DNA of 64,000 bases from Nakazawaea peltata (taxonomy: Eukaryota; Ascomycota; Pichiomycetes; Alaninales; Pachysolenaceae), in the NCBI GenBank assembly GCA_001599355.1, contig BCGQ01000011.1, positions 123,662 through 187,661 of the forward strand. Reading direction: 5' to 3'. How positions within the stretch are numbered: the stretch's first letter is position 1; the number at the start of each line of letters is the position of its first letter. Below the pieces are notes generated by a model that did no database searches, was not told the origin of the DNA, and worked only from the letters and a program-made list of their open reading frames with translations. Positions 2,509 through 54,969 of this stretch are shown one piece after another. The position numbers were made by a program, and so were the translations under genes.

Positions 2509-3317
2509 TCACAAGGAATCTAATCTATCATTGATCTCTTGAGGAGTCAATTTTCTGAATCTAGGGCCTGCAACTCCTTCAGCACCTTGGAATCCCAACA
2601 GCATCTCATCTTCCAGTCCAATAACACTAATCTCAATAGTATTACCATTCATTTCTCCCTCAATACTCTCTTTCAAAGTCAACAAAGCAATATGAATAGC
2701 ATCTTCCAACTCTAATTCATCATTCCATCTCTTTTCAAGGAATGTCTTAGCCAGACTGGCATTCTTACCGATCAGAGTCAGTTTCCATGGGAAATAAGAT
2801 CCAGAAGGATCAATTTGGTATAACATGAATTCATTTTGTTCATCGTAAGCACCGAGCAATAATGACACTCCATAAGGTCTTACACCTCCACTCTGTGTCA
2901 GCTCTTGCATGATCTTTGCAATATCCAGTGTCAATATCTTTGCAGGTGGGTATTCATTATAAATACGTTTATATTTGGTATGCGAAACCCTTCTAGAGGC
3001 GTCTACAAGTACTCTGAAATCAGGTCCCATTCCAGAATAAGTCATCCCGACATTAGGAGTGATATCCACGATCTTACTTTCCACGTCACCATTGATCAAT
3101 TCCGATGCTGTTCTCTTCTCGGTAGCTAAAACAATACCATTTGTAGCCTTGATTCCCAACGACGTCACACCTTGACTAACCGCCTTCAAAGCATATTCGA
3201 TTTGTACTAATTTACCACTACAATTCTGTTAGTAATCACTTTCAATCGACCCCAATTTTCACTCAAAACTTACCTAGGAGAGAATGTGGTCAAAGAAAAC
3301 GAGTATCTGTCAGCCAT
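2509..3317 (-). CDS. PRE8: 20S proteasome subunit alpha 2 (one intron)
   Basis: Outer-ring alpha subunit of the 20S proteasome. The CDS is the complement of 2509-3217 joined to 3274-3317. Exon 1 (44 nt) encodes MADRYSFSLTTFSP plus part of a Ser codon. The 56-nt intron 3218-3273 has GTAAGT, TACTAAC and TAG. The spliced protein is 250 residues, the same as yeast Pre8, with the alpha-type N-terminus FSPSGKLVQIEYA, then GVTSLGIKATNG, YSGMGPDFRVLVD and SGGVRPYGVSLL. Four CTG codons (2901-2899, 2781-2779, 2775-2773, 2754-2752) fall on family alanines, as in WKATAIGK, and support CUG=Ala. The exon 1 start was chosen because exon 2 alone lacks the conserved N-terminal helix. Confidence 0.96.
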
Positions 3318-3390
3318 TTTACCGGTGTTTGTTCACAATTGACCTTCTTTTCAACTCGCTACCGCTCTCAATTGAACTTGTGAAAGAAAA

Positions 3391-3399
3391 GGTGGCGAT
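3391..3399. promoter_or_regulatory. Rpn4/PACE-like element upstream of PRE8
   Basis: GGTGGCGAT lies 74 bp upstream of the PRE8 ATG. It keeps the GGTGGC core of the proteasome-associated control element GGTGGCAAA bound by Rpn4. Position and gene type fit; binding is inferred. Confidence 0.4.
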
Positions 3400-3425
3400 T
3401 TTTTTGTATATTTTTCGCGAGTTTT

Positions 3426-3525
3426 CCGAGGGTGCGTTAAAGGGAGAGGAAGTTTGGCATGGCTTTTTTTCCGGGGGTATTCCGAGGGTATTCCGAGGGT
3501 TCTACTGGGGCAGTTCTCCGAGGGT
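3426..3525. repeat. Cluster of CCGAGGGT octamers
   Basis: Exact CCGAGGGT occurs at 3426-3433, 3482-3489, 3493-3500 and 3518-3525, with a CCGGGGGT variant at 3471-3478. The cluster lies 109-208 bp upstream of the PRE8 ATG and downstream of the U2AF gene. The same octamer clusters again at 29213-29256. It is probably a transcription-factor site array. Confidence 0.65.
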
Positions 3526-3575
3526 AGGGGATGGAAGAGACGGTCATTGAGACCGGTTTATTATAAGTATACAGT

Positions 3576-4351
3576 TTAATATGCCAAGGATTCAGGTTCT
3601 TCAGGTCTTGGTTTCACTTCTTGACGTTGAGATCTCGGTTGGAATTGTTTCTTTTGGGATGCAAATAATGATTTCTTCAATTCTGGGTTGACACTTTTCA
3701 CGTGCCAGAAATTACAATGGGCATCTCTTGGGCAAGAACCAGAAGTTTGGTAAGTACCACAGATAGCTTCTTCAAATTTGGATACTGGAGATAATTCCAC
3801 AAAGATAGGTCTCTGATCATACCAACGACCATTCATATCTTGAAATGCACGTTCCAGGTCTTGTTCTCTGGCAAATTTCACAAATACATTCCCATTCAAA
3901 TGGTTGAAATTCTCGGTGACTTCTAAATCTTCCACTTTACCATATTTCAAGCTGAATTCGCAGAAAATGTCTTTATAGAACTCCTCGAAATGATCCCGAA
4001 GTTGTTGCTCTGTCATAGAACCAGTATATATATATTTTGGAGGAAGTTCATGCTTTGACTCCACAAATTTCTTCTTCAGTTCTGCTGCTTCGAGACTGAG
4101 GTTGATGGCCTCTTCATTGGCCTCTTCTGCCTTCTGTTTCTCCCATACTGGGTTTCTGTACATATTAGGCATCATTAATACTCTAGAATAGGTCGGTTTT
4201 TGATGTTGTCTGGAACATCTATCTCCATGACGACACACTCCAATTTTGGAATAAAATGTACTGGTTAAATATAGTTAGTATGAGGTATGAGAAGGTCCAA
4301 CTTTGAACTGAAAACTTACCATATCTGAGAGTCACCGTTTCTATAACTCAT
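3576..4351 (-). CDS. uaf2: Splicing factor U2AF small subunit (U2AF35-like, one intron)
   Basis: Recognises the 3' splice-site AG as part of U2AF. The CDS is the complement of 3576-4260 joined to 4320-4351, 238 residues. The 59-nt intron 4261-4319 has GTAAGT, TACTAAC and CAG. Domains in order are a CCCH zinc finger (C11-x8-C20-x5-C26-x3-H30, where Cys11 is completed by the splice), an RRM-like UHM domain at about residues 55-150, and a second CCCH finger (CGTYQTSGSCPRDAHCNFWH). The layout and length match S. pombe Uaf2 and human U2AF35. Saccharomyces cerevisiae lacks this gene, so its retention says something about splicing here. The intron in its own 5' end could allow feedback control. Confidence 0.92.
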
Positions 4352-4610
4352 ATTGAATCGAAATCTTTAGTAGGTAATGCAAACTGCTGGTATAAAACTC
4401 TATGGTCTCTTTATAAGCGCCTGTGCAAAACCCCTGTGCTCTCTTTATAATCGCCATCTTATATTTTATAGGGAAGGTGTATTAAATTTCCTAATTTGGA
4501 ATGAAAAATTTTATTAGTAAATCGGGAATTCAAACCCAACGTCTAATCTGAGACAAGGTTTCTACAGTTGAGATGAATAGTAGAGATGAAATATTAAGGT
4601 ATAAATAGAT

Positions 4611-5962
4611 CTATTTTTGCTCGTAGAATCTTCTGTACTTGTCGTCGATGTTAGTCAAGTAGTAAGTACCCTTGGAGATATGTTCAATGGATCCCTTTGG
4701 AGCGTAATCTTTTTGCAAGTGGATCAGTTCTCTTAAGGCGATGGCTTCTTCGTATTCCTTTGGAGATTTGGTGGTTCTCAGAGCCAATTTCAGAGGCAAG
4801 TCCAAGGTCTTTACAATCTTGGAGACATCGCCCTTGATTTGGACACTGAAGATAGAAGCAGCTAAACCAGAACCGTAAGAGAACATTCCAATTCTCTTGT
4901 TGGTCAAGTCATCCTTGGAGAAGGTCAACAAGGAAGCAAGGGAAGTCCAGACAGATGCAGTATATGTGTTACCGACATTTGTGGCGAATTCCAAGGATGG
5001 CAGAACCTTGGAGGCAAAGGCTTGCTTGTTAGCAGAAGAGTAAGCCTTGACATCATAAGTCTCTGGGGCAGTCTTCTTAGCAACATCATCCAAATAAGTT
5101 AATAAAGCGTATGACTTGGTGACCAACTTACAGTTTGGAACGTGGAAAGCATTGTAATCGAAGAAATCAACACCAACGGTCTTGTCATCCAATGGAGTCT
5201 TGACCAATCCCTTCTTGATGGCCTTCTTGGAGTATGTGTGGTAACAAGACTTAAGAGCATCTGTGTAACAGTTCAAAGAGAAGTGACCATCGACAACTGG
5301 GTATTCAACAGTGAAGTTTGGCTTATAGAAATCGTAAGCGTGCTCGATGTGAGAACCGTGAACTGGGTCGAAAACAATTGGAGCATCTGGGCCGATCAAC
5401 ATGGCAATGGTACCAGCACCTCCAGTTGGTCTAGCAGCACCCTTGTCGTAAATCAGGATGTCACCACAGACGACAATAGCGTCTCTACCGTCCCAAGAAG
5501 AACTGTCAACCCAGTTGACAGCGTTGAAGACAGCGTTAGTTCCACCGTAACAGGCATTGACAGAGTCAACACCTTCAACGTCAGGGTTCTCCTTGAACAA
5601 TTGCATCAAGACAGACTTAACAGACTTGGACTTGTCCAACAAAGTTTCAGTACCAACATCCAATCTACCAATCTCGTTGGTGTCAATGTTGTTCTTGGTG
5701 ATCAAGTTGTTCAATACGGTCAAACACATAGAGTAGATGTCTTCTCTGTCGTTGACGAAACCCATGTTGGTTTGACCTAAACCGATGGTGTACTTTCCTG
5801 AGCTGACACCATCGAATTGCTCCAAATCAGCTTGGTTGACAGCCTATAAACGTATTTGTTAGTTACGGCGCTTCGCCATCAAAATAAAGTCGCGTTACTA
5901 CTTACCTCACTTGGAATGTAGACCTCAATGGCCTTGATACCGATATTTTCTGGACGGGACAT
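4611..5962 (-). CDS. ERG13: Hydroxymethylglutaryl-CoA synthase (one intron)
   Basis: Condenses acetyl-CoA and acetoacetyl-CoA to HMG-CoA, the committed early step of the mevalonate/ergosterol pathway. The CDS is the complement of 4611-5843 joined to 5906-5962. Exon 1 encodes 19 residues ([19 protein letters not shown]). The 62-nt intron 5844-5905 has GTAAGT, a CTAAC branch site and TAG. The 429-residue product is shorter than the 491-residue S. cerevisiae enzyme because it lacks the N-terminal extension. The active-site Cys motif is NACYGGTNA, with [15 protein letters not shown] and YSGxGLAAS-type C-terminal motifs ([10 protein letters not shown]). An internal TTG at 5825 is not a start, because splicing restores the conserved N-terminus. 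Confidence 0.96.
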
Positions 5963-6122
5963 GTTGTTATACAGTAAGCGAGAGTTCTATTATCCTCCAG
6001 AACGATCTTTGATCCGAAAGGCCTCTATAATAATAGTTGAGTATTATACCCCTTTAGCTAAATAGACTAAGATTCGACCCGCTCCTTTTTATAAGGTGAA
6101 AAAAAAGTTTTTCGACGCATCG

Positions 6123-6129
6123 TCGTATA
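6123..6129. promoter_or_regulatory. Sterol regulatory element-like site (Upc2 type) upstream of ERG13
   Basis: TCGTATA, the core of the Upc2/Ecm22 sterol response element in S. cerevisiae, lies 161 bp upstream of the ERG13 ATG. A 7-mer is expected several times by chance in this window. Support comes from its recurrence before ERG9 and the sphingolipid desaturase. Confidence 0.4.
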
Positions 6130-6165
6130 CAAAATTTGTTAGGGAGATTTGTTAAATGTTGGGAT

Positions 6166-6230
6166 GTGAAGGGTAGGGGGAGAGGGGTAGAGAGGGGTAG
6201 AGAGGGGAGAGAGGTGAAGAGGGGAGAGAT
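6166..6230. repeat. Purine-rich GGGGTAGAGA tract
   Basis: Almost pure purine run on the + strand built from GGGGTAGAGA and GGGGAGAGA units, about 200-270 bp upstream of ERG13. It is a simple low-complexity repeat. Confidence 0.6.
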
Positions 6231-6617
6231 GATAAGTTGTAGAGAATATGGGTAGAGTATAGTGGGTATGGAAGGATAAATCATTTAAATTACAAATTGT
6301 AGATATTTACATAGCCTCTTCCTTCTTTAGCATTCTCCCCTATCTGTTCGTAGCGTCGTTTATAAATCTGTATTTACTCGCTCATGCGCATCGCTTGGTG
6401 GAAGCGAGGAAGAATCTGACGATAGTTAAGATTTCAGGTGTGGTACTGGGGAGAGGGACAGCATAAGGGAAGTATAGGGGGGAGGGGGATATTGAGCGGA
6501 AATGCAGGAGATGAGAATAGACGTTTATTCATATATAGTTCTTAAGTAATATCATTGAATTACGGTAATTACGGTAATTTAACGTCCTTTTACTCCTCTT
6601 CTTGCAGCCCTTATCTT

Positions 6618-6630
6618 ACATCATAACACC
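6618..6630 (-). repeat. Interstitial telomere-like box
   Basis: Reverse complement GGTGTTATGATGT, identical to 13 bp of the terminal 28-bp repeat. It lies 656 bp upstream of ERG13. Confidence 0.75.
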
Positions 6631-6852
6631 AAATCCCAGGATTATTTGCGATTATTTTCCCTTGCGCCGCACCTTTGATAAGCAACAAAAGGGGCGATAA
6701 TTTGTGTTCTTTCTTACTAAACCTACAAAGTGAATGCGCCACTGTTCTACTTTCTAATCTTCTGTTTCTTGCACTCCAAGCTACTACACTACAACTATAC
6801 CCCATAGCCACACTCTTACAACATTACCTTCAAATCAAGATATTTATTTTAT

Positions 6853-8751: not shown

Positions 8752-8775
8752 CTAGGAGACTAGGAGACTAGGAGA
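8752..8775. repeat. CTAGGAGA x3 tandem octamer
   Basis: Three perfect head-to-tail copies of CTAGGAGA, in the promoter region shared by MSC1 and the first MFS gene. Confidence 0.8.
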
Positions 8776-9081: not shown

Positions 9082-10764
9082 ATGTCAGAATCTACTGCAT
9101 ACGATGATATCGCCTCTTCTATTTCTCTTGACTCTAATCAAGATCCCTTGCCCTTTGATGTTGAACTGCAAACAAATAATAATGATTTAGTAGACGGAGA
9201 AGAGCTTGAGAAATTAGAGAGCAATGCTCTGATTAATAGAAACATTTCACGCATGTATACCAATGCCCAAAGTTTGTTAGAAAAGCTGCAATCGAAAAGC
9301 GGACCAATTCCTCCTATGGGTTTGGATAAAAAAATCCCTAACTTTATCCCCAATAGAGATGAATATACAGTTTCGTTTAATGGAGAAGATGATCCTATGC
9401 ATCCGCATAATTGGCCATTGAAGAAGAAAATATTGATTTGTGTTATGATAGCATTGAACACAGTTGCTGTAAGTTGGGGAAGTTCTGTCTTCAGCCCAGG
9501 GTTAGAAGAGATCTCTGCAGAGTTCCATGTCAGCGTCGAAGTCTGCATCTTGGGAATCTCCTTATATGTTTTAGGATTTGCTACTGGACCTGTTATTTGG
9601 GCTCCATTATCTGAATTATATGGAAGAAGAATTGTTTTAATCATAAGTAGTTTGGGATTCACATTATTCCAATTTGCAATTGCAACTGCTAAGGATATTC
9701 AAACTATTATTATTTGCAGATTCTTTGCTGGATGTATTGGAGCTGCTCCGCTTGTTGTTGTTCCAGCTCTGTTTGCTGATTTGTTCAACAATAGAGCCCG
9801 TGGTAAACTGATTGCTTTGTTTGCCATGGCGGTTTTCTTATCGCCAATTTTAGCACCTGTAGCAGGATCATTTATTGCTCATTCTTATTTAGGATGGAGA
9901 TGGCTCGAATACATCACAGGAATTATGAGTGTACTGGCTTTGCTATTAGTTGTCGTATACTTTGAAGAAACACATCATCCAATTATTTTGGTTCACAAAC
10001 TGGAAGAATTGAGAAGAAGAACAGGTAATTGGGCAATTCATCTGCCACATGATGAGTTCACCTTGTCCATCAAAGAGATTCTGCAAAATAACATCACCAG
10101 ACCAATTAAAATGTTGTTCAGTGAAAGCACTATTTTCTTAATCTCGTTGTACAATTCATTTATCTACGCCATTTTGTACTTGTTATTATCAGCTTATCCA
10201 ATTGTATTTGCTGAGGGGTACCAAATGAAAGGAGGAGTGGCAGAATTACCATACTTGGGAGTTGCTATTGGAATGATTTGTGGTGGGTTATATGCAATGT
10301 GGTCAGATGGCTCGTACCAAAAACTGATGGATAATAATGAGGGTAGAGCAGTTCCAGAGGCCAGATTAACAAGTATGTTCCCAGGAGCTTTCACATTTCC
10401 TATTGGACTTTTCTGGTTTACATGGACAGGAAATTACCCAGAAACAGTTCACTGGATGCTGCCAACAGCTGCTGGTGTTTTCATTGGATTCGGTTTAATC
10501 ACCATCTTCAATGCCTGCATAAATTACCTTATTGATAGTTATTTAGTCTTTGCAGCATCTGCTATGGCAGCCAATGCCTTCCTTAGACTGGCTTTAGCAT
10601 GTGCATTCCCATTATTTGGAACACAGATGTTCCATAATATGGGCACCAATTGGGCTGGATTATTACTTGCATGTGTTGGGTTCGTATTAGCCCCGGTACC
10701 TTTCCTTTTCTACAAATTCGGTCCAAAGATCAGACTGAGATCTAAGATGGCTTATTCTTTATAA
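9082..10764 (+). CDS. DHA1-family MFS drug/polyamine exporter (Tpo1/Flu1-like), copy 1
   Basis: Plasma-membrane proton antiporter of the DHA1 family, 560 residues with about 12 membrane segments after a cytosolic N-terminus of about 110 residues. Family motifs are FNGEDDPMHPHNWPLKKK just before TM1, FATGPVIWAPLSELYGRR (motif A region), CRFFAGCIGAAPLVVV, and AFLR-[CTG]-ALACAFPLFG near TM11. Substrates in this group include polyamines, fluconazole and other drugs; the substrate here cannot be read from sequence. The gene has a TATA box 48 bp upstream. It is a tandem paralogue of the gene at 11602-13386, very similar from residue 70 onward and divergent in the N-terminal tail. Confidence 0.88.
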   Translation: MSESTAYDDIASSISLDSNQDPLPFDVELQTNNNDLVDGEELEKLESNALINRNISRMYTNAQSLLEKLQSKSGPIPPMGLDKKIPNFIPNRDEYTVSFNGEDDPMHPHNWPLKKKILICVMIALNTVAVSWGSSVFSPGLEEISAEFHVSVEVCILGISLYVLGFATGPVIWAPLSELYGRRIVLIISSLGFTLFQFAIATAKDIQTIIICRFFAGCIGAAPLVVVPALFADLFNNRARGKLIALFAMAVFLSPILAPVAGSFIAHSYLGWRWLEYITGIMSVLALLLVVVYFEETHHPIILVHKLEELRRRTGNWAIHLPHDEFTLSIKEILQNNITRPIKMLFSESTIFLISLYNSFIYAILYLLLSAYPIVFAEGYQMKGGVAELPYLGVAIGMICGGLYAMWSDGSYQKLMDNNEGRAVPEARLTSMFPGAFTFPIGLFWFTWTGNYPETVHWMLPTAAGVFIGFGLITIFNACINYLIDSYLVFAASAMAANAFLRLALACAFPLFGTQMFHNMGTNWAGLLLACVGFVLAPVPFLFYKFGPKIRLRSKMAYSL

Positions 10765-11601
10765 GAAATATATAATATATAGATTCTGAAAAATCATTTC
10801 AAATATACATTTTAATATCACGACATTTGCTTTTGGTCATAGTAGTTACCGAAGTAAACTATATGACATATCAAACTATAATAATTAAATTTGAAGTGAA
10901 CCACCCATGCACCCCCTTTGTTGGTAGCCGTTTACCAAGCTTTTTTACTGCGTTGACAATTATCGCACAGTAATTAACCGTCAATAACCGAAGACCCTGC
11001 AGGAGGGGTTGCGCGAGGCAAGATTTGAAGATTAGGAAGAAGGAAGAAGGTGATGGTCTGATAGATCCGGGGTTAGGAAATATTGAGAAATTTAGGAGAT
11101 TCAGGAGATAAAGAAACTAATACTGAGCGGAGTATTAGTCAGTTTCCCACCATATTCGGACGAGTGCTCTATTACTAATATGTTGCATACAGGGGCTTCA
11201 TTGCTATAGTCCGAAATTATTTGTAAAATTTCATGCGCATTTGTTGTTTGCCGAGCAGAAAAAATTAGTTATGTCTCTCCTTCTTCGGATGTTTGTCCGA
11301 GGTTCGCTTGATTCGCACTCAACTGAAAAATCATCTCCGATTGGCACTGCTTCAAAGAAGAGCCTCGTTTGTTGCGCACTCTCATAGTATTCCAGAAAGC
11401 TCCAGAAAAGCAGTTACGGGCGGTGCGGCTTTGCGCAATTAGCGCTTTTTGGTTAATTTTTTCGCATTTAAGCACCTGTATGCATTTCGGCACTTTAAAG
11501 CCGCAGGTTCGGCAACTAAATCGGTTATTATATAAATAAAAGATAGGCCGCAGGGGATCTCGAGAAGGGGTGGAAAATTATTCTGGGTGGTAGTAGACAA
11601 G
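10765..11601. other. Intergenic region between the two MFS paralogues
   Basis: 837 bp without a supported gene. It includes a TTACTAA Yap1-type site (11172-11178) and a TATA box TATATAAA (11529-11536) 66 bp before the second MFS ATG. It is not an obvious copy of the first gene's promoter. Confidence 0.55.
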
Positions 11602-13386
11602 ATGACTAATTCTAGTGAGGAAACTACTGGTATGTACGATCAGCCAAATGCTAATAGGAACGTTGCTGACATCCAAGCAGACTCTACATTACAAACAGAC
11701 GTTGCCGATGACAAGGATGCTCTTTCTGTCTCGTCGGGCTCAAACGATGCCGGGGACCCTGTGGCATTGGAGGGGGATTCTCTGAAAGATATCGAGAGAT
11801 ATGCGGGAGAAGATGAAGCTAGTGATTTGGTGAGGGTTGAGAGTGGTGCTGAGGCTAACCGTACTATTTCAAGACTGTACACCGATGCTCTGAGTTTAGT
11901 GGAGAGACTGCAGTCTGAAAGTGGGCCTCTCCCATCTATGGGACTTGACAAACAAATACCAAGTGTTATTCCAGACAGAGAAGAATATACTGTTTCATTC
12001 AATGGACCCGATGATCCTGACCATCCTCATAATTGGCCCTTGAAGAAGAAACTTCTTATCTGTATTATGATTGCGTTCGGTACTGCTTCTGTCGGTTGGG
12101 GAAGTTCCATTTTCAGTCCTGGTATTACGGAGTTCGCTGCTCATTTCAATGTGAGTGAAGAAGTCGGTATCTTGGGAACCTCTTTGTACGTCTTAGGATT
12201 TGCTACAGGTCCTGTTATTTGGGCTCCATTGTCTGAATTATATGGAAGAAGAATCGTTTTGATCTTGAGTATTATGGGTTTCACCATTTTCCAATTCGGT
12301 GTGGCCACAAGTCCTAACGTCCAAACTGCCATTATTTGCAGATTCTTCGCCGGATGTATTGGAGCTGCCCCGCTTGTTGTTGTTCCAGCTGCTTTCTCCG
12401 ACTTGTTTGATAACAGAACTCGTGGTAAACTGATCACCATTTTCGGTATGACAGTCTTCATGTCCCCTATTATTGCTCCAGTTGTAGGAGCATTTATCGC
12501 ATATTCATATTTGGGATGGAGATGGCTCAGTTACATCACTGGTATTATGAGTGCATTTGCGTTGACTATGGTTTGTATTTTCTTTGAAGAAACTCACCAT
12601 CCAATTATTTTAGTTAAAAAGCTGGAAGAATTGAGAAGAAGAACCGGCAATTGGGCTATCCATCTGCCTCACGATGAGTTTACTTTGTCCATTAGAGAAA
12701 TCGTAGAGAAGAACATTACCAGACCTCTTAGAATGTTATTCACCGAGCCAATCATTTTCTTGATTTCCATTTACAACGCTTTCATTTACGGTATTTTATA
12801 CTTGTTATTGTCAGCTTATCCTATTGTATTTGTAGAGGGATATGGATTTTCAGGTGGAGTCTCGGAGTTGCCATATTTGGGAGTTGCTCTTGGTATGTTC
12901 ATCGGTGGTTGGTACAGTATGTGGGCCGAGACCAGATATCGTAAAGTACTTGATAAAAATAACGGTAAAGTAGTACCTGAAGAAAGATTACCTACCATGT
13001 TCCCTGGAGCTTTCTTGTTCCCTCTGGGTCTTCTTTGGTTCACATTTGCCGGTAATTATCCCGACAAAGTGCACTATATGGTTCCAACCGCAGCTGGTCT
13101 TTTCATCGGTTTCGGATTAATCACTATTTTCAACTCATGTATCAATTACATCATTGATAGCTATTTAATCTTTGCAGCCTCTGCTATGGCTGCTAATGCA
13201 TTCTTAAGACTGTCATGGGCTTGTGCTTTCCCATTATTCGGTACTCTGATGTTCCATGGTATGGGAACTAATTGGGCTGGTTTATTACTTGCATGTTTCG
13301 GTTTCCTCTTGGCTCCTGTTCCATTCTTATTCTACAAGTACGGTAGAAAGATCAGAGAGCGTTCCAAGTTGGCTTTCGTCTTGTAG
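11602..13386 (+). CDS. DHA1-family MFS drug/polyamine exporter (Tpo1/Flu1-like), copy 2
   Basis: 594 residues. The start is the ATG at 11602; the frame is open upstream only through non-ATG codons. The layout matches copy 1: an acidic Ser/Asp-rich cytosolic tail (about 125 residues, longer than copy 1), the pre-TM1 motif FNGPDDPDHPHNWPLKKK, then 12 predicted membrane segments with WAPLSELYGRR and CRFFAGCIGAAPLVVV. Differences from copy 1 are concentrated in the tail, the central loop and scattered hydrophobic positions, as expected of an old tandem duplication with separate regulation. The gene is convergent with GAD1, with 59 bp between stop codons. Confidence 0.88.
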   Translation: MTNSSEETTGMYDQPNANRNVADIQADSTLQTDVADDKDALSVSSGSNDAGDPVALEGDSLKDIERYAGEDEASDLVRVESGAEANRTISRLYTDALSLVERLQSESGPLPSMGLDKQIPSVIPDREEYTVSFNGPDDPDHPHNWPLKKKLLICIMIAFGTASVGWGSSIFSPGITEFAAHFNVSEEVGILGTSLYVLGFATGPVIWAPLSELYGRRIVLILSIMGFTIFQFGVATSPNVQTAIICRFFAGCIGAAPLVVVPAAFSDLFDNRTRGKLITIFGMTVFMSPIIAPVVGAFIAYSYLGWRWLSYITGIMSAFALTMVCIFFEETHHPIILVKKLEELRRRTGNWAIHLPHDEFTLSIREIVEKNITRPLRMLFTEPIIFLISIYNAFIYGILYLLLSAYPIVFVEGYGFSGGVSELPYLGVALGMFIGGWYSMWAETRYRKVLDKNNGKVVPEERLPTMFPGAFLFPLGLLWFTFAGNYPDKVHYMVPTAAGLFIGFGLITIFNSCINYIIDSYLIFAASAMAANAFLRLSWACAFPLFGTLMFHGMGTNWAGLLLACFGFLLAPVPFLFYKYGRKIRERSKLAFVL

Positions 13387-13445
13387 GTTTCCAGGTATAT
13401 ATATTTAGCTACAGTTTAATAATTATAAAATCAACAATTAACATT

Positions 13446-15218
13446 TTAACAAGTTCCTCTGTAAGATTTATGAGAACGAGAGGCATTTTTAGCAGCCTCG
13501 GTGGTCTTCTCAGACTCATGTTTAGGTGTTTTCATGGTCATTATACGATCGTCACCTTCACTGGCAATTGAGAGTAACATATTATATACTAAATCACTTC
13601 TTTCTTCCTCGGACATTTCATTGGAAGCCAACATGACACTCTTTCTTACTAAAGTAGCAGATCTCATCAAGACTTGAGTGATGTCAATGATATCTTTCAT
13701 CAATTTGTCCAACAATTGGAGGGTCAAATTGTATCTTACGACTACTCTTAAGATTTCATTGTTTTTACCTGCTGGAGGGGGGTTTTTAGTATGAGGAAGG
13801 GGGTAATTTGGAACAATGAAACCTTTGTTTCTTAATAACAACAGAATACTCGATTGAGGGATCTCTGGGAACTCTTTGATGAACTCTTCAGAGAATTGGA
13901 AAGAGACTACTGGAAGGGAAGATTGATACAGACTGTGATCGCGGAGGTCTCTGGAATCACGAGAGCTGGAGGTATCTTTGGCTTGGTGGATATTGGAAAT
14001 ACACTTGTAATAGCCACTTTCTTCTAAGAAGAAGGACAACAATCTGGCATTGACAATGGCAGTATCAAAGATTTGCTCATAACCTTTGAATCCGAGATGG
14101 ATAAAGTTATAATATTGATGAATAACTTGGAAACCTGGACGGGAGAAATTCAAATTGAAACTTTCTTCTAATCCACCAAGATATCTCAATTGGAATTTCA
14201 ATTCTTGAGGAAGTAACAGAGAGTCTCTCCAAACTACCCAACCTAAACCGGCAGTGACAAGACCGAATTTATGGCCAGAAGTGTTAATGGAATGGACACG
14301 AGGAACACGGAAATCCCATTTCAACTCAGGGTAGATGAAAGGAGCAATCATGGCTCCAGACAGACCATCGACGTGGATAGGAACACTATGACCTGTTTCC
14401 TTCTCATAGTCATCCAAGATTTCAGAAACCAGAACTACATCTTCAAAACCACCAGTATAAGTACTTCCTACAATGACGAAGACACCAATGGTGTTTTCAT
14501 CAAGATGGCTACGAATACAAGAAAGGTCCATTAAGTAGTCATGATCCGGGTCTACAGGGATAATTCTTGCCTCAACATCGAAATATCTGGCAAATTTCTC
14601 AAGAGCAACTTGACAACATGAGGACATCAAAATGTTAGGTTTTGAGGTGTCTTTATTGGCTTCACGACGCTTTTGTTGCCAGAGTTTCTTCAATGCGAGA
14701 CCACCAAGCATAATAGCCTCCGAAGATCCAGTACAAGCGGTTCCTACAGCACAAGTGGAATCCAATCTCTCAGAATTGCTCTTCTTAGGAGCATGCCACA
14801 AGTCAGCCAAGATTGAGACGCATCTTTGTTGCATCTCTAACATAATTGGATACTCATCGTTATCGGCAAGATTCTTCGTCAAATTCTCAGTAATGAGTTT
14901 ATCCAGGTAAGGATCATTGTTGAAAGTGTTGACGAAACTGGCAAGGTTCAAAGTAGGATTACCATCCAAGGCCAATTCATCATGTAACGATTGGTAGGCG
15001 ATCTCTCCTGGAGTGCCATGTTCTGGGAGTCTGTATTTCAAGCTCAAGTCGATGTCGGACATCGAATACAGAGCAAGATTGTCCACAATGTTGGACTCTT
15101 CACGACGAGCCCGATTGCTTTCATTCTTGGCTTGGATGTATTTGTGAACGAGTTTCTCGTGTTTGGTGAGGACTTTTTGTTCGAGTTGATCGATATTGAT
15201 TCCTGCTGAAAGTGTCAT
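13446..15218 (-). CDS. GAD1: Glutamate decarboxylase
   Basis: PLP enzyme converting glutamate to GABA, linked in yeast to oxidative-stress tolerance. 590 residues (S. cerevisiae Gad1 has 585), starting at the ATG at 15218. The PLP lysine is K317 in INTSGHKFG. The cofactor-site Asp motif is usually HVDAASG and here reads HVDG-[CTG]-SG, where CTG (14363-14361) again sits on a family alanine. TACTGSSEA-type substrate/phosphate binding residues are near 160-168. A C-terminal tail of about 40 residues is basic and probably regulatory. Confidence 0.95.
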   Translation of the reverse strand: MTLSAGINIDQLEQKVLTKHEKLVHKYIQAKNESNRARREESNIVDNLALYSMSDIDLSLKYRLPEHGTPGEIAYQSLHDELALDGNPTLNLASFVNTFNNDPYLDKLITENLTKNLADNDEYPIMLEMQQRCVSILADLWHAPKKSNSERLDSTCAVGTACTGSSEAIMLGGLALKKLWQQKRREANKDTSKPNILMSSCCQVALEKFARYFDVEARIIPVDPDHDYLMDLSCIRSHLDENTIGVFVIVGSTYTGGFEDVVLVSEILDDYEKETGHSVPIHVDGLSGAMIAPFIYPELKWDFRVPRVHSINTSGHKFGLVTAGLGWVVWRDSLLLPQELKFQLRYLGGLEESFNLNFSRPGFQVIHQYYNFIHLGFKGYEQIFDTAIVNARLLSFFLEESGYYKCISNIHQAKDTSSSRDSRDLRDHSLYQSSLPVVSFQFSEEFIKEFPEIPQSSILLLLRNKGFIVPNYPLPHTKNPPPAGKNNEILRVVVRYNLTLQLLDKLMKDIIDITQVLMRSATLVRKSVMLASNEMSEEERSDLVYNMLLSIASEGDDRIMTMKTPKHESEKTTEAAKNASRSHKSYRGTC

Positions 15219-22850: not shown

Positions 22851-25031
22851 ATGTTGGTATATATGAGGGGAGTACGAGGATCTGCCTCAGGGTTGAGAAA
22901 TATGACTCGAAATCCCGGGCTTTTTTGGTCAAGTCGTTCTTTTTCGACCTCCTTCACCGGCCTTCGGTCGTCGATGGCGTTGAAATTTGATCTGACGGGG
23001 GTTACAAGGGCGGTTTGGAGTAGAAATAATGGTCAATGGAAAGTTCTTGGAGCATCTAATATGCCTGGAACAAGATATTATTCGTCTAAACCATCACCAG
23101 ACCTGAAATCTGAACTGGAATCCGAGTCTTCTAATGAATCCGAGTCATCAAAATCTAAAAAAGACTCAACTTTCAGAGATATCCTAAATTTATTGAAGCT
23201 TGCGAAACCTGAGTCCAAGTTAATCACCTTGGGTGTCATCTCGTTGTTCATAACAAGTGCAGGAAGTATGGCAATGCCCTCCATTATAGGTAAAGTGATC
23301 GATACTACGACGGTTTCTGAGAGTAAAGAGCCTAAGATCAAGTTGGGAGATTACGAGTTCACAGAGTTCGAATTTTATACTGGAGTTGGTGTGGTTTTCC
23401 TCCTTACAGCTATAACTAACTTCGGACGTATCTACTACTTGAAAAAAGTGGCCGAAAGAGTCGTCTATAAATTGAGAGCCACCATAGTTCGGAATTTGTT
23501 TTATCAAGATGCCAAATTTTGGGATATTCATAAATCGGGGGATTTGATATCGAGATTGGTTAATGACTCGAGTATTATATCTAAATCTGTTACTCAGAAC
23601 CTTAGTGATGGTTTAAGAGGTACCATTCAAGGAATGGTGGGATTGACTATGATGCTTTTCATCAGTATCAAATTGACTGGTTATATGGTAGTTATGTTTA
23701 TTCCTATTATTCTGATTGGGTTGGTATTTGGTAGAAATGTACGGACGTTGAGTAGATTGACACAGGAACAATTAGGTTCGTTGACTAAGATCTCCGAGGA
23801 GCAGTTCTCTTTCATTAAGACTATGCAAGCTTTTGGTAGAGAGAATTTCGAATTGAAAAAATACACTACTCTGTTAGATGATTTGTATCAATTGGGACTT
23901 CGTGAACTGAGATTGCAAGGTAACTTCTATTCATCGACTGGGTTCTTCGGGAACTCATTACTTATTGGGTTACTTATCATTGGAACTAATATGGTGAGAA
24001 CTAACCAGATGAGTATTGGAGAGTTATCGAGTTTCATGATGTACTCGGTTTATTCTGGGTCTTCTTTCTTCACGTTATCGAATTTCTATGCCGAGTTGAT
24101 GAAAGGTGTAGGAGCTTCTACCAGAGTATTTGAGATGTTGGATGTTAAGCCAGGTATTAGATCTGATGTAGGGAAGAAAGTTTATCATCCAAAAGATTAT
24201 GAGCTTTTGACTGATAAGACAGATGCTATTACTATTGATGGAGATATCGAATTCAAAGGTATAGATTTCCATTATCCAACAAGGACTAATCATCAGATTT
24301 TCTCCGGTTTGGATCTCACCATCAAGAAGGGAGATCATGTTTGTCTTGTTGGACCTTCTGGATGTGGAAAATCTACCATTGCACAGTTACTTTTCCGTCA
24401 TTATGATGCTCAGAAGGGACAGATCTTGATCAACGGGACAGATTTGAAAGAAATCAACTTGCAGTCGTTACGTAGTAGTATTGGAATAGTCCAACAAGAG
24501 CCTATGTTATTCTCTGGAACTATTAGAGAGAACTTGACGTATGGTAAATTGGATGCTGCTGATGAAGAAGTATTTAGTGCTTGTAAATTAGCCAACTGTT
24601 ATGACTTTATAATGAGTTTCCCTGAAGGATTCAATACTGTGATTGGAGCTAAGGGCACCCAATTGTCGGGGGGTCAAAAGCAAAGAATTGCTTTACTGAG
24701 GATGTTACTTTTTGATCCTGATTTGATTATTTTGGATGAGGCTACTTCTCTGCTTGACAATAACTCGGAATTGGCTATCAATGACACTTTGAAACTGTTA
24801 AGTGATAAGACCGTCATAAGTATTCTGCATAGATTAAGCACTATAAAGATGAGTGACAAGGTGATTGTATTTGGGAAGCTGGATGAAGATTCCCAGTTCA
24901 ATGGTATTTTGGAGATCGGAGATTATAATGAGCTCATTGTAAATAAAGATAGTCAGTTATGGAAGTTGCTCAAACGGTCTCAAGACGGTCAAGACACCGA
25001 AGTTGAATTATCGGTAGGTGAAAAATTGTAA
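22851..25031 (+). CDS. MDL1: Mitochondrial ABC half-transporter Mdl1 (ABCB10 type)
   Basis: Inner-membrane ABC half-transporter, linked in yeast to peptide export from the matrix. 726 residues. The N-terminus is rich in Arg/Ser and lacks acidic residues, as expected for a mitochondrial presequence. The membrane domain spans about residues 120-420. The nucleotide-binding domain has Walker A GPSGCGKST near 502, signature LSGGQKQRIA near 605 and Walker B LIILDEATS near 626. Two CTG codons in the ATPase domain, 24696-24698 and 24750-24752, fall where the family has Ala (IA-x-ARALL and DEATSALD), strong evidence for CUG=Ala. A telomere-like box begins at the last base of the stop codon. Confidence 0.94.
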   Translation: MLVYMRGVRGSASGLRNMTRNPGLFWSSRSFSTSFTGLRSSMALKFDLTGVTRAVWSRNNGQWKVLGASNMPGTRYYSSKPSPDLKSELESESSNESESSKSKKDSTFRDILNLLKLAKPESKLITLGVISLFITSAGSMAMPSIIGKVIDTTTVSESKEPKIKLGDYEFTEFEFYTGVGVVFLLTAITNFGRIYYLKKVAERVVYKLRATIVRNLFYQDAKFWDIHKSGDLISRLVNDSSIISKSVTQNLSDGLRGTIQGMVGLTMMLFISIKLTGYMVVMFIPIILIGLVFGRNVRTLSRLTQEQLGSLTKISEEQFSFIKTMQAFGRENFELKKYTTLLDDLYQLGLRELRLQGNFYSSTGFFGNSLLIGLLIIGTNMVRTNQMSIGELSSFMMYSVYSGSSFFTLSNFYAELMKGVGASTRVFEMLDVKPGIRSDVGKKVYHPKDYELLTDKTDAITIDGDIEFKGIDFHYPTRTNHQIFSGLDLTIKKGDHVCLVGPSGCGKSTIAQLLFRHYDAQKGQILINGTDLKEINLQSLRSSIGIVQQEPMLFSGTIRENLTYGKLDAADEEVFSACKLANCYDFIMSFPEGFNTVIGAKGTQLSGGQKQRIALLRMLLFDPDLIILDEATSLLDNNSELAINDTLKLLSDKTVISILHRLSTIKMSDKVIVFGKLDEDSQFNGILEIGDYNELIVNKDSQLWKLLKRSQDGQDTEVELSVGEKL

Positions 25032-30452: not shown

Positions 30453-31253
30453 TTAATCAAACAGCAATTGCTTCTTAATCTCGGCAATAGCCAAACCAGG
30501 GTTCAAACCCTTTGGACAGGTTCTGGAACAGTTCATAATGGTGTGACATCTGTACAAAGACATGGAGTTTTGTAACATTTCTCTTCTGATCAGCTTAGCT
30601 TCATCTCTGGAGTCGATCAACCATCTGTACAGTTGCATTAATACGGCTGGACCCAAGTATTGTTGTTGGTTCCACCAGTAAGATGGACAAGAAGTGGAAC
30701 AACATGCACACAAGATACATTCATACAAACCGTCCAACTTCTTACGGTCTTCAATGGATTGCAAGTTCTCCTTACCATCGGCTGGCAAGTGCTCGGTTTG
30801 CAAATATGGTTGAATAGACTTATATTGCTTGTAGAAGTGGGTCAAATCTGGAACCAAATCTCTGACAACGAACATATGAGGTAATGGGTAGATCTTGGTC
30901 TCCTTAGAGGTATCTTGCTCGATTCTACACAAACAAGCCAAGGTGTTTCTACCTCCAATGTTCATGGCACAAGAACCACAGATACCTTCTCTACAAGATC
31001 TTCTGAAGGTCAAGGTAGAATCCTGTTCATTCTTGATCTTGATGATGGCATCCAATACCATAGGACCACACTTGTTCAAATCCACTTGGTATTCTTGCAT
31101 TTGTGGTTTCACCTCTGGGGTGTCCGGGTTCCATCTGTAAATTTTAAAAGTCTTCAATCTAGGCAGTTGCTCATTGGAGACGGTAGCCAAGCTCCTGAGG
31201 GATCTCAAGGAGTATGAGGCAGTTCTTTGCTTGAAAAGAGGGTTGGCGAACAT
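30453..31253 (-). CDS. SDH2: Succinate dehydrogenase iron-sulfur subunit (complex II)
   Basis: Carries electrons from FAD to ubiquinone in mitochondrial complex II. 266 residues from the ATG at 31253, the same length as yeast Sdh2. An upstream TTG at 31274 is not taken as start. The presequence is [21 protein letters not shown]. Cluster ligands are the [2Fe-2S] motif [21 protein letters not shown], the [4Fe-4S] motif [12 protein letters not shown] and the [3Fe-4S] motif [17 protein letters not shown] codons at 30632-30630 (LMQ-[CTG]-YRW) and 30464-30462 (QL-[CTG]-FD) stand where the family has Ala. Confidence 0.97.
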
Positions 31254-49162: not shown

Positions 49163-49326
49163 TGCTCTGGTAATTGAAAAATGTGATCTGCTACTTTTAA
49201 TATTTAATAGAATGTGACCAAGTTAATTTCTATCCCTAATTATGTAGTAGCCAGATATCAGTGACAAATTTATTGATTTGACTCTGATTGTCCACGATTT
49301 TAATTCTGTGTATCCCCTTTTTAATA

Positions 49327-49635: not shown

Positions 49636-50444
49636 TATAATTACAAGGATGTTGAGACGCCGTAAAGAAGTGTACTCAGTTTTACGTTTTACATATTTAA
49701 AGTTCCAAGTCTGAAAAGCGTTTTAAAGTTCAATTATTTCTGATCTACATATTAATTTTTTAGGGCAAATGTTAATTAGTCCGGTTGCTAATAGAGCAAA
49801 AATTAGTCTTATGCAAAATTTTATAGTCAATTATATAATATATATCTGATTTAAGTTTAGGAGAATTTTCGAATTATAGTTACTATGGTTAAGTGAGAGT
49901 TTTCAGGTATGCTCTATTACATCATCAGCCGATCCGTTCCTAACCACAACGTTTATTGAACGTTGCTTGTAATATCCCTTTTTTGCGGAGTCATTTATTA
50001 TAGCACTTGTGACGTTTATTGTAATCAGTAGATTGCTCATCAATTTATAAAGTATATTTAGAGATTGACGGTAGAGCAACCACCCGAGCAGCAAATCCAG
50101 CAACTTGTCGAGTGATAAACAACGTTTGTCAGTCCTTGACAACCTGTCGGCGACGACCTGTGACATCTCTATCAGATTCTCAATAGTCCATTGCCCTCTC
50201 ACCCTTGGCTATCTCATCCTTGCCATGCTGACTTCACTCACTCTATCATTGGCTGAGTAATTAAGTCGTGCATATATCAAAATCAACCTTATTGGGAATA
50301 AATTACCTATTTAGGAACTAAAATCCCGATAAAAAAAGAGCAAAAAATTCTCTACAAAAACATACCGATGAGAAGGGCTTTGGATTATAAATCAAATATT
50401 CAAAGGTGACTCAAGAAGTTTAAGAGCGGACGATAGTGGTCAAT
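49636..50444. other. Intergenic region between the CFEM-like gene and NAR1
   Basis: About 810 bp. A minus-strand frame with an ATG at 50166 (87 codons, to 49903) is uncertain. GTCGTGCAT at 50265-50273 lies 172 bp upstream of NAR1 and is followed by TTATTGGGAAT and CCTATTTAGG. Confidence 0.5.
49903..50166 (-). CDS. Doubtful 87-codon open frame
   Basis: ATG at 50166, product MSQVVADRLSRTDKRC onward. With CTG read as Ala it would be mostly helical and soluble. An in-frame stop lies just above, at about 50210, so no longer exon is evident without an intron. There is no family resemblance. It could be chance. Confidence 0.2.
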   Translation of the reverse strand: MSQVVADRLSRTDKRCLSLDKLLDLLLGWLLYRQSLNILYKLMSNLLITINVTSAIINDSAKKGYYKQRSINVVVRNGSADDVIEHT

Positions 50445-52067
50445 ATGAGTGCGATATTGTCGGCGGATGATTTGAACGACTTTATTAGTCCGGGAGTAGC
50501 ATGTATTAAGCCTTTAGAGATCAAGCAGGAAGTGCCCAAACAAAATGAAGGTGATGGCGGTATGGAAATTGAGATAGACTACGATGGGATGGAAGTCTCG
50601 GTATCGAAGGAGGATGAAAAGAGTGGAGAAGAAGTAGCGCGTCCTCTTGACCAGGCTCAAATCTCCTTGAGTGACTGTTTACTGTGTTCTGGGTGTATTA
50701 CGTCAGCAGAAGAAGTGCTTGTTCTGCAACATTCTCATAAAGAGCTTGTGAAGGCGTTGGAATCTTACAAAAATAACAAGAAATTTGTGGCCAGTATCAG
50801 TCATCAAAGTAGAGCCTCATTGGCCGTTGCATATGGTCTTAGTATTGAACAAACTGATAAATTTCTTATCGATTTATTTGTGAACAAATTAGGATTCAGT
50901 CATATTGTAGGAATGGGATTAGGAAGAAAGTTATCATTACAGTACAGCGCTATGGATATGATTAAGAGGAAAGAATCCGGAGCTGAATCTTCACCTGTTC
51001 TTTCAAGTGCATGTCCTGGTTTCATTCTTTATCTGGAGAAGACTCATCCTGAACTTATCTCCAGGATTAGTAATATCAAATCACCTCAACAAATCACTGG
51101 TATTATTCTTAAGAAGCTTGTTGCTATGCAATGGGGAGTTACTGAGGGTGATGTATACCATTTGTCTGTGATGCCATGTTTTGATAAGAAGCTTGAACTG
51201 GCCAGACCCGAAAAGAATTTCGAGACCGATGAGTTGATCCAAGAAGATTTCAAAGATGTGGATTGTGTCATTACTCTGAAAGAGTTGGTGCAAATGTTGA
51301 TGGAGTATGAGCTGGAACTGAACTTGTTCAACATCCAGGATATGATTGCTGAAGTTAAGAAAGACTCCTCGAATATCAGCGAAGTTTATACACGTTTTGC
51401 TCCTGAACATTGGCCATTCAAAGTGGAAAGTTGGCTCGGAGATGAAGGCTCGGCTTCTGGTGGATACGGATATCAATATCTTATGAACTACAAGGATTAT
51501 TTATCATTGAATAATGCTGATCAGACGTTCAGTATTGTTGCTGTAAATGGAAGAAATACTGATATTATGGAGTATCGTTTGATTAATGAAAGTACTGGAG
51601 AGAAAGTCGCATCTACAGCGGTTGTCAATGGATTTAGAAACATTCAGAATATCGTTCGTAAATTAAAGAATGGTGATTCAACCGGATTGAAAAAGACTAA
51701 GAATTTAGTTGTACGGAGAAGACAAAGACAAGGAGCTGAGTCCGGGAAAGTGACACCAGCTGGTAACGTTGCTGATCTGTCGACTTGTGATTACGTTGAA
51801 GTGATGGCTTGTCCAAATGGTTGCATTAACGGTGGTGGTCAGATTGCTGCTCCAGAAGATATTGGTGTCAAGCTGTGGGTTGCTAAGGTAGAAGATTCTT
51901 ATCGTAGTATTCCGATCAGTAGTATCGGTGATATGAATCAGTGGTTAACTGATTTCTGTAGGGAGTTCGAGTTGAACAGTAACAGAATATTGAAGGTGAG
52001 ATACAATGAGAGAGAGAAGATTAATAGTCTGGTTCCTGCAGCTTTAGCTATTGGAGATAAATGGTGA
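50445..52067 (+). CDS. NAR1: Cytosolic iron-sulfur protein assembly factor Nar1
   Basis: Hydrogenase-like scaffold of the cytosolic Fe-S assembly machinery that connects early and targeting steps. 540 residues from the ATG at 50445 (MSAILSADDLNDFISPGVACIKP); the frame is open upstream only via GTG. N-terminal cluster Cys lie at C20 and in DCL-[CTG]-CSGC, followed by CPGFILY, VMPCFDKK, RNTDIMEYRL and ACPNGCINGGGQ, the hydrogenase-type cluster ligands. CTG codons at 50682-50684 (DCLxCSGC) and 51198-51200 (KKLExxRPE) fall on family Ala. The C-terminal W is the conserved targeting residue of CIA clients. Confidence 0.95.
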   Translation: MSAILSADDLNDFISPGVACIKPLEIKQEVPKQNEGDGGMEIEIDYDGMEVSVSKEDEKSGEEVARPLDQAQISLSDCLLCSGCITSAEEVLVLQHSHKELVKALESYKNNKKFVASISHQSRASLAVAYGLSIEQTDKFLIDLFVNKLGFSHIVGMGLGRKLSLQYSAMDMIKRKESGAESSPVLSSACPGFILYLEKTHPELISRISNIKSPQQITGIILKKLVAMQWGVTEGDVYHLSVMPCFDKKLELARPEKNFETDELIQEDFKDVDCVITLKELVQMLMEYELELNLFNIQDMIAEVKKDSSNISEVYTRFAPEHWPFKVESWLGDEGSASGGYGYQYLMNYKDYLSLNNADQTFSIVAVNGRNTDIMEYRLINESTGEKVASTAVVNGFRNIQNIVRKLKNGDSTGLKKTKNLVVRRRQRQGAESGKVTPAGNVADLSTCDYVEVMACPNGCINGGGQIAAPEDIGVKLWVAKVEDSYRSIPISSIGDMNQWLTDFCREFELNSNRILKVRYNEREKINSLVPAALAIGDKW

Positions 52068-53442
52068 GATGTGGTGTCATATACAGTCATAGCAGGGCTT
52101 TCGTGCCCTAATTTAATATATTTATATTGCATTCCAGATTATACTCTGGTTAGATAGAGAGACAGTGTAGGTTTGAAATGTCAAATGGAGAAACTTAGCC
52201 TATTTATGACCCGATTTAGCAATTTTGGCGCTTATTCACACGACTCCTGGCTTCCGTTTGATTCGTTTTGTTTGCTCTGTCCGGTTAGCGGAGGGTTGGG
52301 AAAGGGCAAATTGTCAACGAAAAAGTTTTTCCGATACAGAAATATGGAAAAGATAAAGAAGTGGATATGGAACGTTGGTGGGGGTGAAAAAAGAGGAATT
52401 GTACGGGTAGGTACGACAGGATGAGAATAGGTAAGAATCGAAGATTGATATGTGGAATTAACTTGAAATAGAAATTGTCTTTTTCATGAGAGATATTCGC
52501 TAAGGATCAAGGGTAAAGATTAAGCAAGGGCAGTTTTTTTTTCTTAGTCATTGCAGCACTAGCCTCATTGGACGGCCCCCGGGTTGATTAGTACGAGGAT
52601 CGGATTTGTTCAATTACCTAATTGTGGCTGTTGAGTTCCCTGATTTCCCGCTCGTTATATTTCTCAGCCAAAAATGGAGCGGGCTAATCTCGGTTAGCGC
52701 TGATGCAATAGGCGTGACATTCTTGAGACCTCTGTTATCCGGACATTTTAGACAAGAAAATGTGGCTAATTTTTTTGTTTGCCTCTCAATGTTGTCGGAG
52801 TTCGATGGAAAGGGGCACGAATATCGGAGCGAAATCGGTGCTTATGAATTTGTCATAGAGCAAAGACAAAAAACTAGATAAAACGAGGTTGTTCAAGCAA
52901 AGGTGGGAAAGATACGAGATTATAAACCTAGGGTTGACTATACACTTAAAGAGATATCTCGAACTCGAACTCTAGTACAATCTCCTTATCTCTGAATTTC
53001 GATGTAGACGTAGATCAATGACATGAACTTGTTTGGCTCTTAATCCTAAATCTTAGTAATATCAAACTCTTATCGAGACCCCCCTTACCTTAGTAATATT
53101 CCATCCACGTTAAGTATAGTTTGTGGCTGATTGCACGTGATATTAGCCCAAAACTCTACTCCTTAGCCCCCCAAAAATGACAAACTTTTTTTTTTGCCTC
53201 AGCGGGGACACAACCTCCCGACTATGGGGGGTTTTCCTCTTCCACTTAACACAGGTCCCAGCGCACTTTCATGCCCTTTCCCTTCCCTTCATTTGTAATT
53301 TTATCGGGGTTCTCCCATTTTTTTGCAGCGAGCGAAAAAATCTCAAGCACTACAAAAAGCATCGAGTTCCTTCTCCATCTTATTATTAATCAAGCAGTTT
53401 AAGAGGCGATTTGATCAATTGAATAGTAAATTAAGTACAACG
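52068..53442. other. Intergenic region: NAR1 3' flank and ZWF1 promoter
   Basis: 1.37 kb with no supported gene. A frame of about 90 codons starting at a TTG near 52606 has no recognisable product. C-rich/T-rich tracts occur at 53080-53300. Confidence 0.5.
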
Positions 53443-54969
53443 ATGTCCCCTGTCGCATTCAAAGAAAACACCGTCGTAGTGGTCTTCGGAGCCTCTGGTG
53501 ATTTGGCCAAGAAGAAGACCTTCCCTGCTTTGTTCGGTTTGTTCCGTGAGGGTTATCTTAGTGAGACCACCAAGATCATTGGTTATGCTCGTTCGAAGTT
53601 GACCAATGATGAGTTCTACGACCGTATTCGTGGATACTTGAAGGCTCCAACTGATGAGGCTGCCGCTAAGGTTGATCAATTCTTGAAGATGTGCTCTTAT
53701 TCTTATGCTCCATATGACACCCCAGAAGGTTACGAACTGTTGAATGCTGAGATGGAAGAATTCGAGAAGGAAAAGAAGGTAGACGAACCACGTAGATTGT
53801 TCTACTTGGCCTTACCTCCATCTGTCTTCACTGTCGTTGCTGGAAACTTGAAGAAACACTGTCATCCAAACCCTAATGGAGATGAAGGTAAAGGTATTGC
53901 TCGTATTATCATTGAGAAACCATTTGGTCATGATCTTGAATCTTCTCGTCTGTTATCTCGTGACTTGGCTCCTCTTTGGAAGGAGGAAGAACTTTACAGA
54001 ATTGACCACTACCTTGGTAAGGAGATGGTCAAGAACTTGATGGTTTTGAGATTCGGTAACCAAATCTTGAACCTGTCTTGGAGTAGAGATCATATTAAAT
54101 CCATTCAAGTATCATTCAAGGAACCTTTTGGTACTGAAGGTCGTGGTGGTTACTTCGACTCGATTGGTATTATCCGTGATGTCATGCAAAACCATCTTTT
54201 ACAAGTTTTGACCATCTTGGCTATGGAGAGACCTGTCAGTTTCGATCCAGAACTGGTACGTGATGAAAAGGTCAAGGTTTTGAAGCTGATCAAGAAGATT
54301 GATCATGATGATGTTTTGCTTGGTCAATATACTAAATCTGAGGATGGTTCTAAACCTCTGTACGTCGATGATGATACCGTTCCAGCCGACTCTAAGTGTG
54401 TCACATTTGCTCTGCTTACTATTAATATTGAGAATGAACGTTGGGATGGTGTTCCAATTATTATGAGAGCCGGTAAACTGTTAAACGAAGGTAAGGTTGA
54501 AATTCGTATCCAATACAAGGATGTTGCTTCTGGTATTTTCAACGAAATCACTCGTAACGAGTTGGTTATCCGTATCCAACCAAATGAGCTGATCTACATG
54601 AAGGTTAATTCCAAGTTGCCTGGTGTCTCTACCGACACCATCTTGACCGAGTTGGACTTGAGTTACAAGACCCGTTACAAGGACTTCTACATTCCAGAGC
54701 TGTACGAATCTTTGATTCGTGATGCTTTGCTGGGTAACCACGCTAACTTTGTTCGTGACGATGAATTGGATGTTTCTTGGAAGTTATTCACTCCATTATT
54801 GAACTATTTAGAAGGTGAAAACCTGCCTGTTCCAAAGCCTTATGCTTATGGATCCCGTGGTCCAGAGGGTTTGGTCGAGTACTTGGAGAAGCACGGTTAT
54901 GTATTCCGTAAGGATGGTGTTTACTCATGGCCTATCACCTCTCCTAACAGGGATGCATCTAAGATGTAA
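53443..54969 (+). CDS. ZWF1: Glucose-6-phosphate 1-dehydrogenase
   Basis: First enzyme of the oxidative pentose phosphate pathway and a main source of NADPH. 508 residues from the ATG at 53443 (yeast Zwf1 has 505). NADP-binding GASGDLAKKKTFPALFGL is near the N-terminus, the active site is RIDHYLGKE, and FGTEGRGGYFDSIGIIRDVMQNHLLQ and YGSRGPEGL follow. At least 13 CTG codons are present. At 54253 (DPE-x-VRD), 54358 (SKP-x-YVDDD), 54478 (AGK-x-LNE) and 54700 (PE-x-YES) the S. cerevisiae enzyme has Ser or Ala, never Leu. The NADPH would serve sterol and sphingolipid synthesis by other genes here. Confidence 0.97.
   Translation: MSPVAFKENTVVVVFGASGDLAKKKTFPALFGLFREGYLSETTKIIGYARSKLTNDEFYDRIRGYLKAPTDEAAAKVDQFLKMCSYSYAPYDTPEGYELLNAEMEEFEKEKKVDEPRRLFYLALPPSVFTVVAGNLKKHCHPNPNGDEGKGIARIIIEKPFGHDLESSRLLSRDLAPLWKEEELYRIDHYLGKEMVKNLMVLRFGNQILNLSWSRDHIKSIQVSFKEPFGTEGRGGYFDSIGIIRDVMQNHLLQVLTILAMERPVSFDPELVRDEKVKVLKLIKKIDHDDVLLGQYTKSEDGSKPLYVDDDTVPADSKCVTFALLTINIENERWDGVPIIMRAGKLLNEGKVEIRIQYKDVASGIFNEITRNELVIRIQPNELIYMKVNSKLPGVSTDTILTELDLSYKTRYKDFYIPELYESLIRDALLGNHANFVRDDELDVSWKLFTPLLNYLEGENLPVPKPYAYGSRGPEGLVEYLEKHGYVFRKDGVYSWPITSPNRDASKM

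Follow-up and report, generated by a model that had tools for sequence, protein, structure and literature searches.

The 64-kb stretch of DNA analyzed here (the window) belongs to the nuclear genome of a budding yeast from the CUG-Ala clade (order Alaninales), in which CUG is a regular alanine codon served by a dedicated CAG tRNA, a reading that we hold at a probability of about 0.97. The alanine meaning of CTG is confirmed and is of a known kind, the CUG-Ala code (NCBI table 26), and all protein models here are to be translated with that table. The window closes contig C11 as its final 64 kb (positions 123662-187661), and the genome that carries it comprises 11.63 Mb in 11 contigs.

CTG codons fall on conserved alanines

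The code inference that an earlier note on this DNA had called for was run on three window genes rather than on the whole proteome. ZWF1, MDL1, and NAR1 were searched with X at each CTG, so that the query favors no reading, and each was aligned to 120 listed homologues; every codon was scored for each of the 20 amino acids by its summed column log-odds. A column had to hold at least 80 residues to count, which dropped 4 of the 33 CTG codons and kept 29. Alanine was the best residue for these 29 columns, at +45.6 bits, followed by serine at -19.7 and glycine at -39.9, with all other residues lower. Fifty-nine codons occurred, and 57 of them recovered their standard amino acid; the other two were CTG (29 columns) and CTA (a single, uninformative column).

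Many CTG sites fall on variable columns. Where at least 80% of homologues share one residue at a CTG column (n=12), that residue is alanine in 11 cases, serine in 1, and leucine in none, and when the bar is lowered to a 60% majority (n=17), the counts are 15 for alanine, 1 for leucine, and 1 for serine. Read from the side of the residue, the 39 columns with at least 80% alanine are coded by CTG in 11 cases, by GCN in 25, and by other codons in 3, while none of the 94 conserved (at least 80%) leucine columns in the three alignments, and 1 of the 55 conserved serine columns, uses CTG.

A second approach translated the same ORFs with tables 26, 12, and 1 and scanned them against Pfam, summing over domains hand-picked as principal and non-overlapping, with weaker or overlapping families, including Sugar_tr, left out. 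In the window (10 proteins, 15 domains), the sums were 2447.1 bits for alanine, 2418.4 for serine, and 2383.7 for leucine, with alanine best in 12 domains and all three readings equal in 1. Ten ORFs outside the window (21 domains), which lie on contigs C1, C2, C3, C4, C7, and C10 and were chosen by eye among the first 45 entries in a list of 125, most of their loci having been fetched with CAG-bearing patterns, gave 2810.2, 2770.1, and 2743.8 bits in the same order; alanine alone was best in 13 domains, tied with serine in 1, and equal to both others in 1. The earlier note had held that CTG does not fit leucine, that most sites fit alanine better than serine, and that the window belongs to the CUG-Ala yeasts and must be read with table 26. 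The absence of CTG from conserved leucine columns, the order of the Pfam sums, the codon scores, and the tRNA described below support this interpretation.

Table 1. Genes of the window with informative CTG codons, and single CTG sites at which all listed homologues agree
Feature	Position	Strand	CTG codons
ZWF1, glucose-6-phosphate dehydrogenase	53443..54969	+	12 CTG; 5 where at least 80% of homologues have Ala: 54286, 54412, 54478, 54589, 54700
MDL1-type ABC transporter	22851..25031	+	11 CTG; 3 where at least 80% of homologues have Ala: 24696, 24750, 24825
NAR1, Fe-S cluster assembly factor	50445..52067	+	10 CTG; 3 where at least 80% of homologues have Ala: 50682, 50724, 51033; one where 82% have Ser: 51198
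PRE8 (proteasome alpha-2), 3' part	2509..3045	-	7 CTG; 4 aligned to Ala: 2899-2901, 2779-2781, 2773-2775, 2752-2754
SDH2, succinate dehydrogenase iron-sulfur subunit	30453..31253	-	4 CTG; 2 aligned to Ala: 30630-30632, 30462-30464
Glutamate decarboxylase (GAD1-like)	13446..15218	-	7 CTG; 14361-14363 aligned to Ala of HVDAASG
HMG-CoA synthase without first exon(s)	4611..5765	-	5 CTG; 5454-5456 aligned to Ala of GDIAVY
CTG in ZWF1 PExYE	54700..54702	+	Ala in 120/120 listed homologues
CTG in MDL1 DEATSxLD	24750..24752	+	Ala in 120/120 listed homologues
CTG in NAR1 DCLxCSGC	50682..50684	+	Ala in 120/120 listed homologues

Individual genes

A CTG is found at each coordinate that the earlier note gave for such codons, and most of the family alanines named there stand (Table 1). 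The four sites in PRE8 are borne out against the best solved chain (yeast-type alpha-2, component Y7), in which the remaining three of seven align to Ser, Asp, and Leu, and both SDH2 sites hold in a solved-structure alignment, where the other two of four align to Thr and Lys. The glutamate decarboxylase site, in the context HVDGxSG, aligns to the second alanine of its motif, and in MDL1 the site at 24696 is alanine in 118 of 120 listed homologues, alongside the invariant one at 24750. Two proteins gave a mixed outcome. In NAR1 the alanine at 50682 is invariant, but at 51198 the family residue is serine in 98 of 120 (alanine in 21), and the site reads KLExARP in place of the KLEASRP that had been proposed; in ZWF1, 54478 (alanine in 119 of 120) and 54700 stand, but at 54358, in SKPxYVDDD, the homologues divide into 70 with glycine, 34 with alanine, and 16 with serine. 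Strong alanine sites that the earlier note had not listed are 24825, 50724, 51033, 54286, 54412, and 54589.

Across the four proteins compared with solved structures (main aligned stretch, by eye), 8 of 20 CTG sites align to alanine (PRE8 4/7, SDH2 2/4, glutamate decarboxylase 1/4, HMG-CoA synthase 1/5) and the other 12 to Ser (3), Lys (2), Asp (2), Leu (2), Thr (1), Cys (1), and Glu (1), with a fifth glutamate decarboxylase site, in a weak second aligned stretch, falling on Ser.

Upstream of their ORFs, PRE8 and HMG-CoA synthase both run on in other frames (3046-3580 and 5766-6300, minus strand), with intron signals between (GTAAGT, TACTAAC, and AG in PRE8), and both genes therefore contain introns. 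NAR1 and ZWF1 adjoin each other here (50445-54969). Locus tags place their homologues side by side or close together in [Candida] arabinofermentans (28927, 28928) and Ogataea philodendri (001531, 001533), which suggests that the pairing is old.

A CAG-anticodon tRNA with alanine features

The earlier note had also proposed looking for a CAG tRNA of alanine identity, and such a gene is present in the same genome, outside the window (C4:81426-81498; L087:101-173). It was located by a pattern scan keyed on the alanine acceptor, and it has G1-C72, G2-C71, the wobble pair G3:U70, and discriminator A73, together with U33, A35, G37, and a 5-nt variable loop, without an intron and with a run of about ten T downstream. 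The G3:U70 pair is the classic determinant of alanine identity, and a variable loop this short fits neither the usual tRNA-Leu nor the usual tRNA-Ser architecture. ARAGORN and Rfam both give a cloverleaf, while energy folding of this tRNA alone gave none (z-score 0.15). ARAGORN labels the gene tRNA-Leu, a name that follows from reading the anticodon by the standard code.

A BLAST search of the genome with the CAG tRNA returned itself only, at E <= 10, and the gene is apparently single-copy; the same search with tRNA-Ala(AGC) returned four AGC and two UGC genes only. Two pattern scans for a Leu- or Ser-type CAG tRNA, with parts of the D- and T-arms fixed and short introns only, gave no match; one of them is valid for class II tRNAs only, and the other required TGGC at positions 8-11. 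The CAG tRNA itself carries TGGT at positions 8-11, and GGTTA where a scan had required GGTAG.

In the mechanism that we propose, CUG would be read by this dedicated tRNA, which alanyl-tRNA synthetase is predicted to charge through G3:U70 and A73, and such charging would make CUG a regular alanine codon. The codon inference and the tRNA gene are demonstrated in this analysis, and for the charging step we infer from the general identity rules of the synthetase.

Other readings of CUG

One alternative keeps alanine as the main meaning of CUG and adds low-level leucine through mischarging of the CAG tRNA. Leucyl-tRNA synthetase reads A35 and A73, both of which this tRNA carries. It also has G37, the base that in the tRNA-Ser(CAG) of Candida albicans causes about 3% charging with leucine (PMC5951914). 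The lack of a long variable arm and the lack of CTG at any of the 94 conserved leucine columns make such ambiguity rather unlikely here.

A serine reading of CUG, such as the CUG-Ser1 and CUG-Ser2 yeasts have, is very improbable. Serine is the second-best residue for the CTG columns, the column at 51198 is 82% serine, and serine scored best in 2 of the 15 window and 4 of the 21 outside Pfam domains; against this stand its negative score beside that of alanine, the use of CTG at 1/55 conserved serine vs 11/39 conserved alanine columns (Fisher, P = 2e-4), and a tRNA with G3:U70 and a 5-nt variable loop in place of the long arm of tRNA-Ser. Leucine under the standard code, with the alanine matches due to chance or misalignment, can be dismissed as less probable still: the ARAGORN label, a leucine majority at the ZWF1 column 54730 (80 of 120 listed homologues), a best score in 2 of the 21 outside domains (none of the 15 in the window), and the overlapping Sugar_tr domain that stood outside the sums (47.4 for leucine vs 43.0) are outweighed by the worst summed Pfam score of the three, in the window and outside, and by conserved leucine columns that never use CTG though it is as common as CTT (Fisher, alanine vs leucine columns, P = 4e-7).

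Comparison with known codes and placement of the genome

The alanine reading of CUG places this genome with a code described in 2016 in Pachysolen and ascribed in 2018 to an Ala clade of Nakazawaea, Peterozyma, and Pachysolen (PMC5951914, PMC11415595, PMC6692504), and a 2024 codon-usage paper already handles Alaninales as CUG-Ala (PMC11540330). In the NCBI taxonomy, that order consists of the single family Pachysolenaceae, with Nakazawaea included. With the code of these genera (table 26) the present genome shares CTG as alanine and a CAG tRNA with alanine features; it differs in the body of the tRNA, for which tRNA-Ala of the same genome is not clearly the nearest match, and in the usage of CTG considered below. 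The CUG-Ser1 and CUG-Ser2 yeasts (table 12; Candida, Ascoidea, Saccharomycopsis) have reassigned the same codon by way of a novel CAG tRNA, but to another amino acid and with a long-armed tRNA-Ser; here the CTG columns do not fit serine best, and the tRNA has a short variable loop and G3:U70. Ashbya (Eremothecium) mitochondria likewise moved leucine-box codons to alanine (CUN-to-Ala), but that case, as described in PMC3874161, is mitochondrial and concerns CUU/CUA rather than CUG.

Among the matches listed, Pachysolen tannophilus was the top named homologue in all three protein searches (ZWF1, MDL1, NAR1), with identities of 70, 62, and 52% in the three proteins; at 52-70% identity, the window therefore comes from a relative and not from P. 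tannophilus itself. Named Nakazawaea or Peterozyma proteins did not appear among the 120 matches listed per search for these three proteins. Two database entries have leucine at conserved alanine columns, P0001 at 3 of 12 and P0241 at 3 of 18, whereas P0122 has it at 0 of 11; the leucines of the first two are probably the pattern expected of a CUG-Ala yeast translated with the standard code.

Origin of the CAG tRNA

According to Krassowski et al., the CUG-Ala tRNA of this clade arose by an anticodon change in tRNA-Ala. In the present genome, the body of the CAG tRNA (positions 8-65 minus the anticodon) matches tRNA-Val(UAC) at 42/55 positions, tRNA-Glu at 40/55, and tRNA-Ala(AGC) at 38/55; tRNA-Leu(AAG) also reaches 42/55, but in a heavily gapped alignment. 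The D-arm and anticodon stem resemble tRNA-Val(UAC) more than tRNA-Ala of the same genome, the D-arm (10-26) matching by hand at 16/17 for tRNA-Val(UAC), which has one extra D-loop base, and at 11/17 for tRNA-Ala(AGC). The variable loop and T-arm look like tRNA-Ala, and the acceptor with A73 matches tRNA-Ala at 11/15 and tRNA-Val at 9/15. From these comparisons of sequence it is possible, though improbable, that the CUG-Ala tRNA was derived from, or is a mosaic with, a tRNA-Val gene, rather than having arisen by anticodon change in tRNA-Ala. A single base change would turn the valine anticodon CAC into CAG, and G3:U70 might then recruit alanyl-tRNA synthetase. The difference is small and the comparison covers tRNA-Val(UAC) and not tRNA-Val(CAC) or tRNA-Val(AAC), and the valine resemblance is a lead only.

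Usage of CTG and CTA

Among alanine codons CTG ranks second, behind GCT, both in the window ORFs and in the ORFs that flank tRNA genes, accounting for 180 of 754 alanine codons (24%) in 22 window ORFs and for 371 of 1249 (30%) in 49 flanking ORFs. For the outside frequency, only the tRNA-flank loci L001-L030 were counted, because most outside-ORF loci had been fetched with CAG-bearing patterns. At conserved alanine sites, CTG makes up 11 of 36 alanine codons (31%), near its overall share. In clades with a changed code, CUG is described in PMC5951914 as relatively rare and placed at poorly conserved sites; against that 2018 description, a codon that is not rare, sits on conserved alanines, and supplies about 24-30% of alanine codons is somewhat unexpected in its ordinariness.

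CTA is among the rarest codons (7/10450 in the 22 window ORFs and 31/17326 in the tRNA-gene flanks). Its rarity raised the idea that CTA too has been reassigned, which was dropped since CTA is generally unpreferred across the subphylum according to PMC11540330. A tRNA-Leu(AAG) gene is present in the genome (L035), and a single pattern-limited scan for tRNA-Leu(UAG) gave no match.

Other features of the window

A perfect 28-bp tandem repeat of 2.9 copies (63921-64000) reaches the last base of contig C11 and is probably a telomere repeat. Near it lies a large Ser/Thr-rich, tandem-repeat, adhesin-like gene (59717-63216) with 111-bp repeats, which switch reading frame near 61 kb, so that either the gene is broken at that point or the assembly is wrong; comparable repeats occur in ORFs near two other contig ends, at L055 (C8:3824) and L080 (C1:2919170). 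At 9082-13386, two similar MFS transporter ORFs stand side by side on the same strand (Pfam on the first only), probably as a tandem duplication.

Implications

At the frequency of CTG found here, translation of this genome with the standard table would be wrong at about 17-21 residues per thousand, an error that is probably already present in P0001 and P0241, database proteins of a relative. With CUG an ordinary codon at conserved alanines, the genome offers models of sense-codon reassignment a useful late-stage case.
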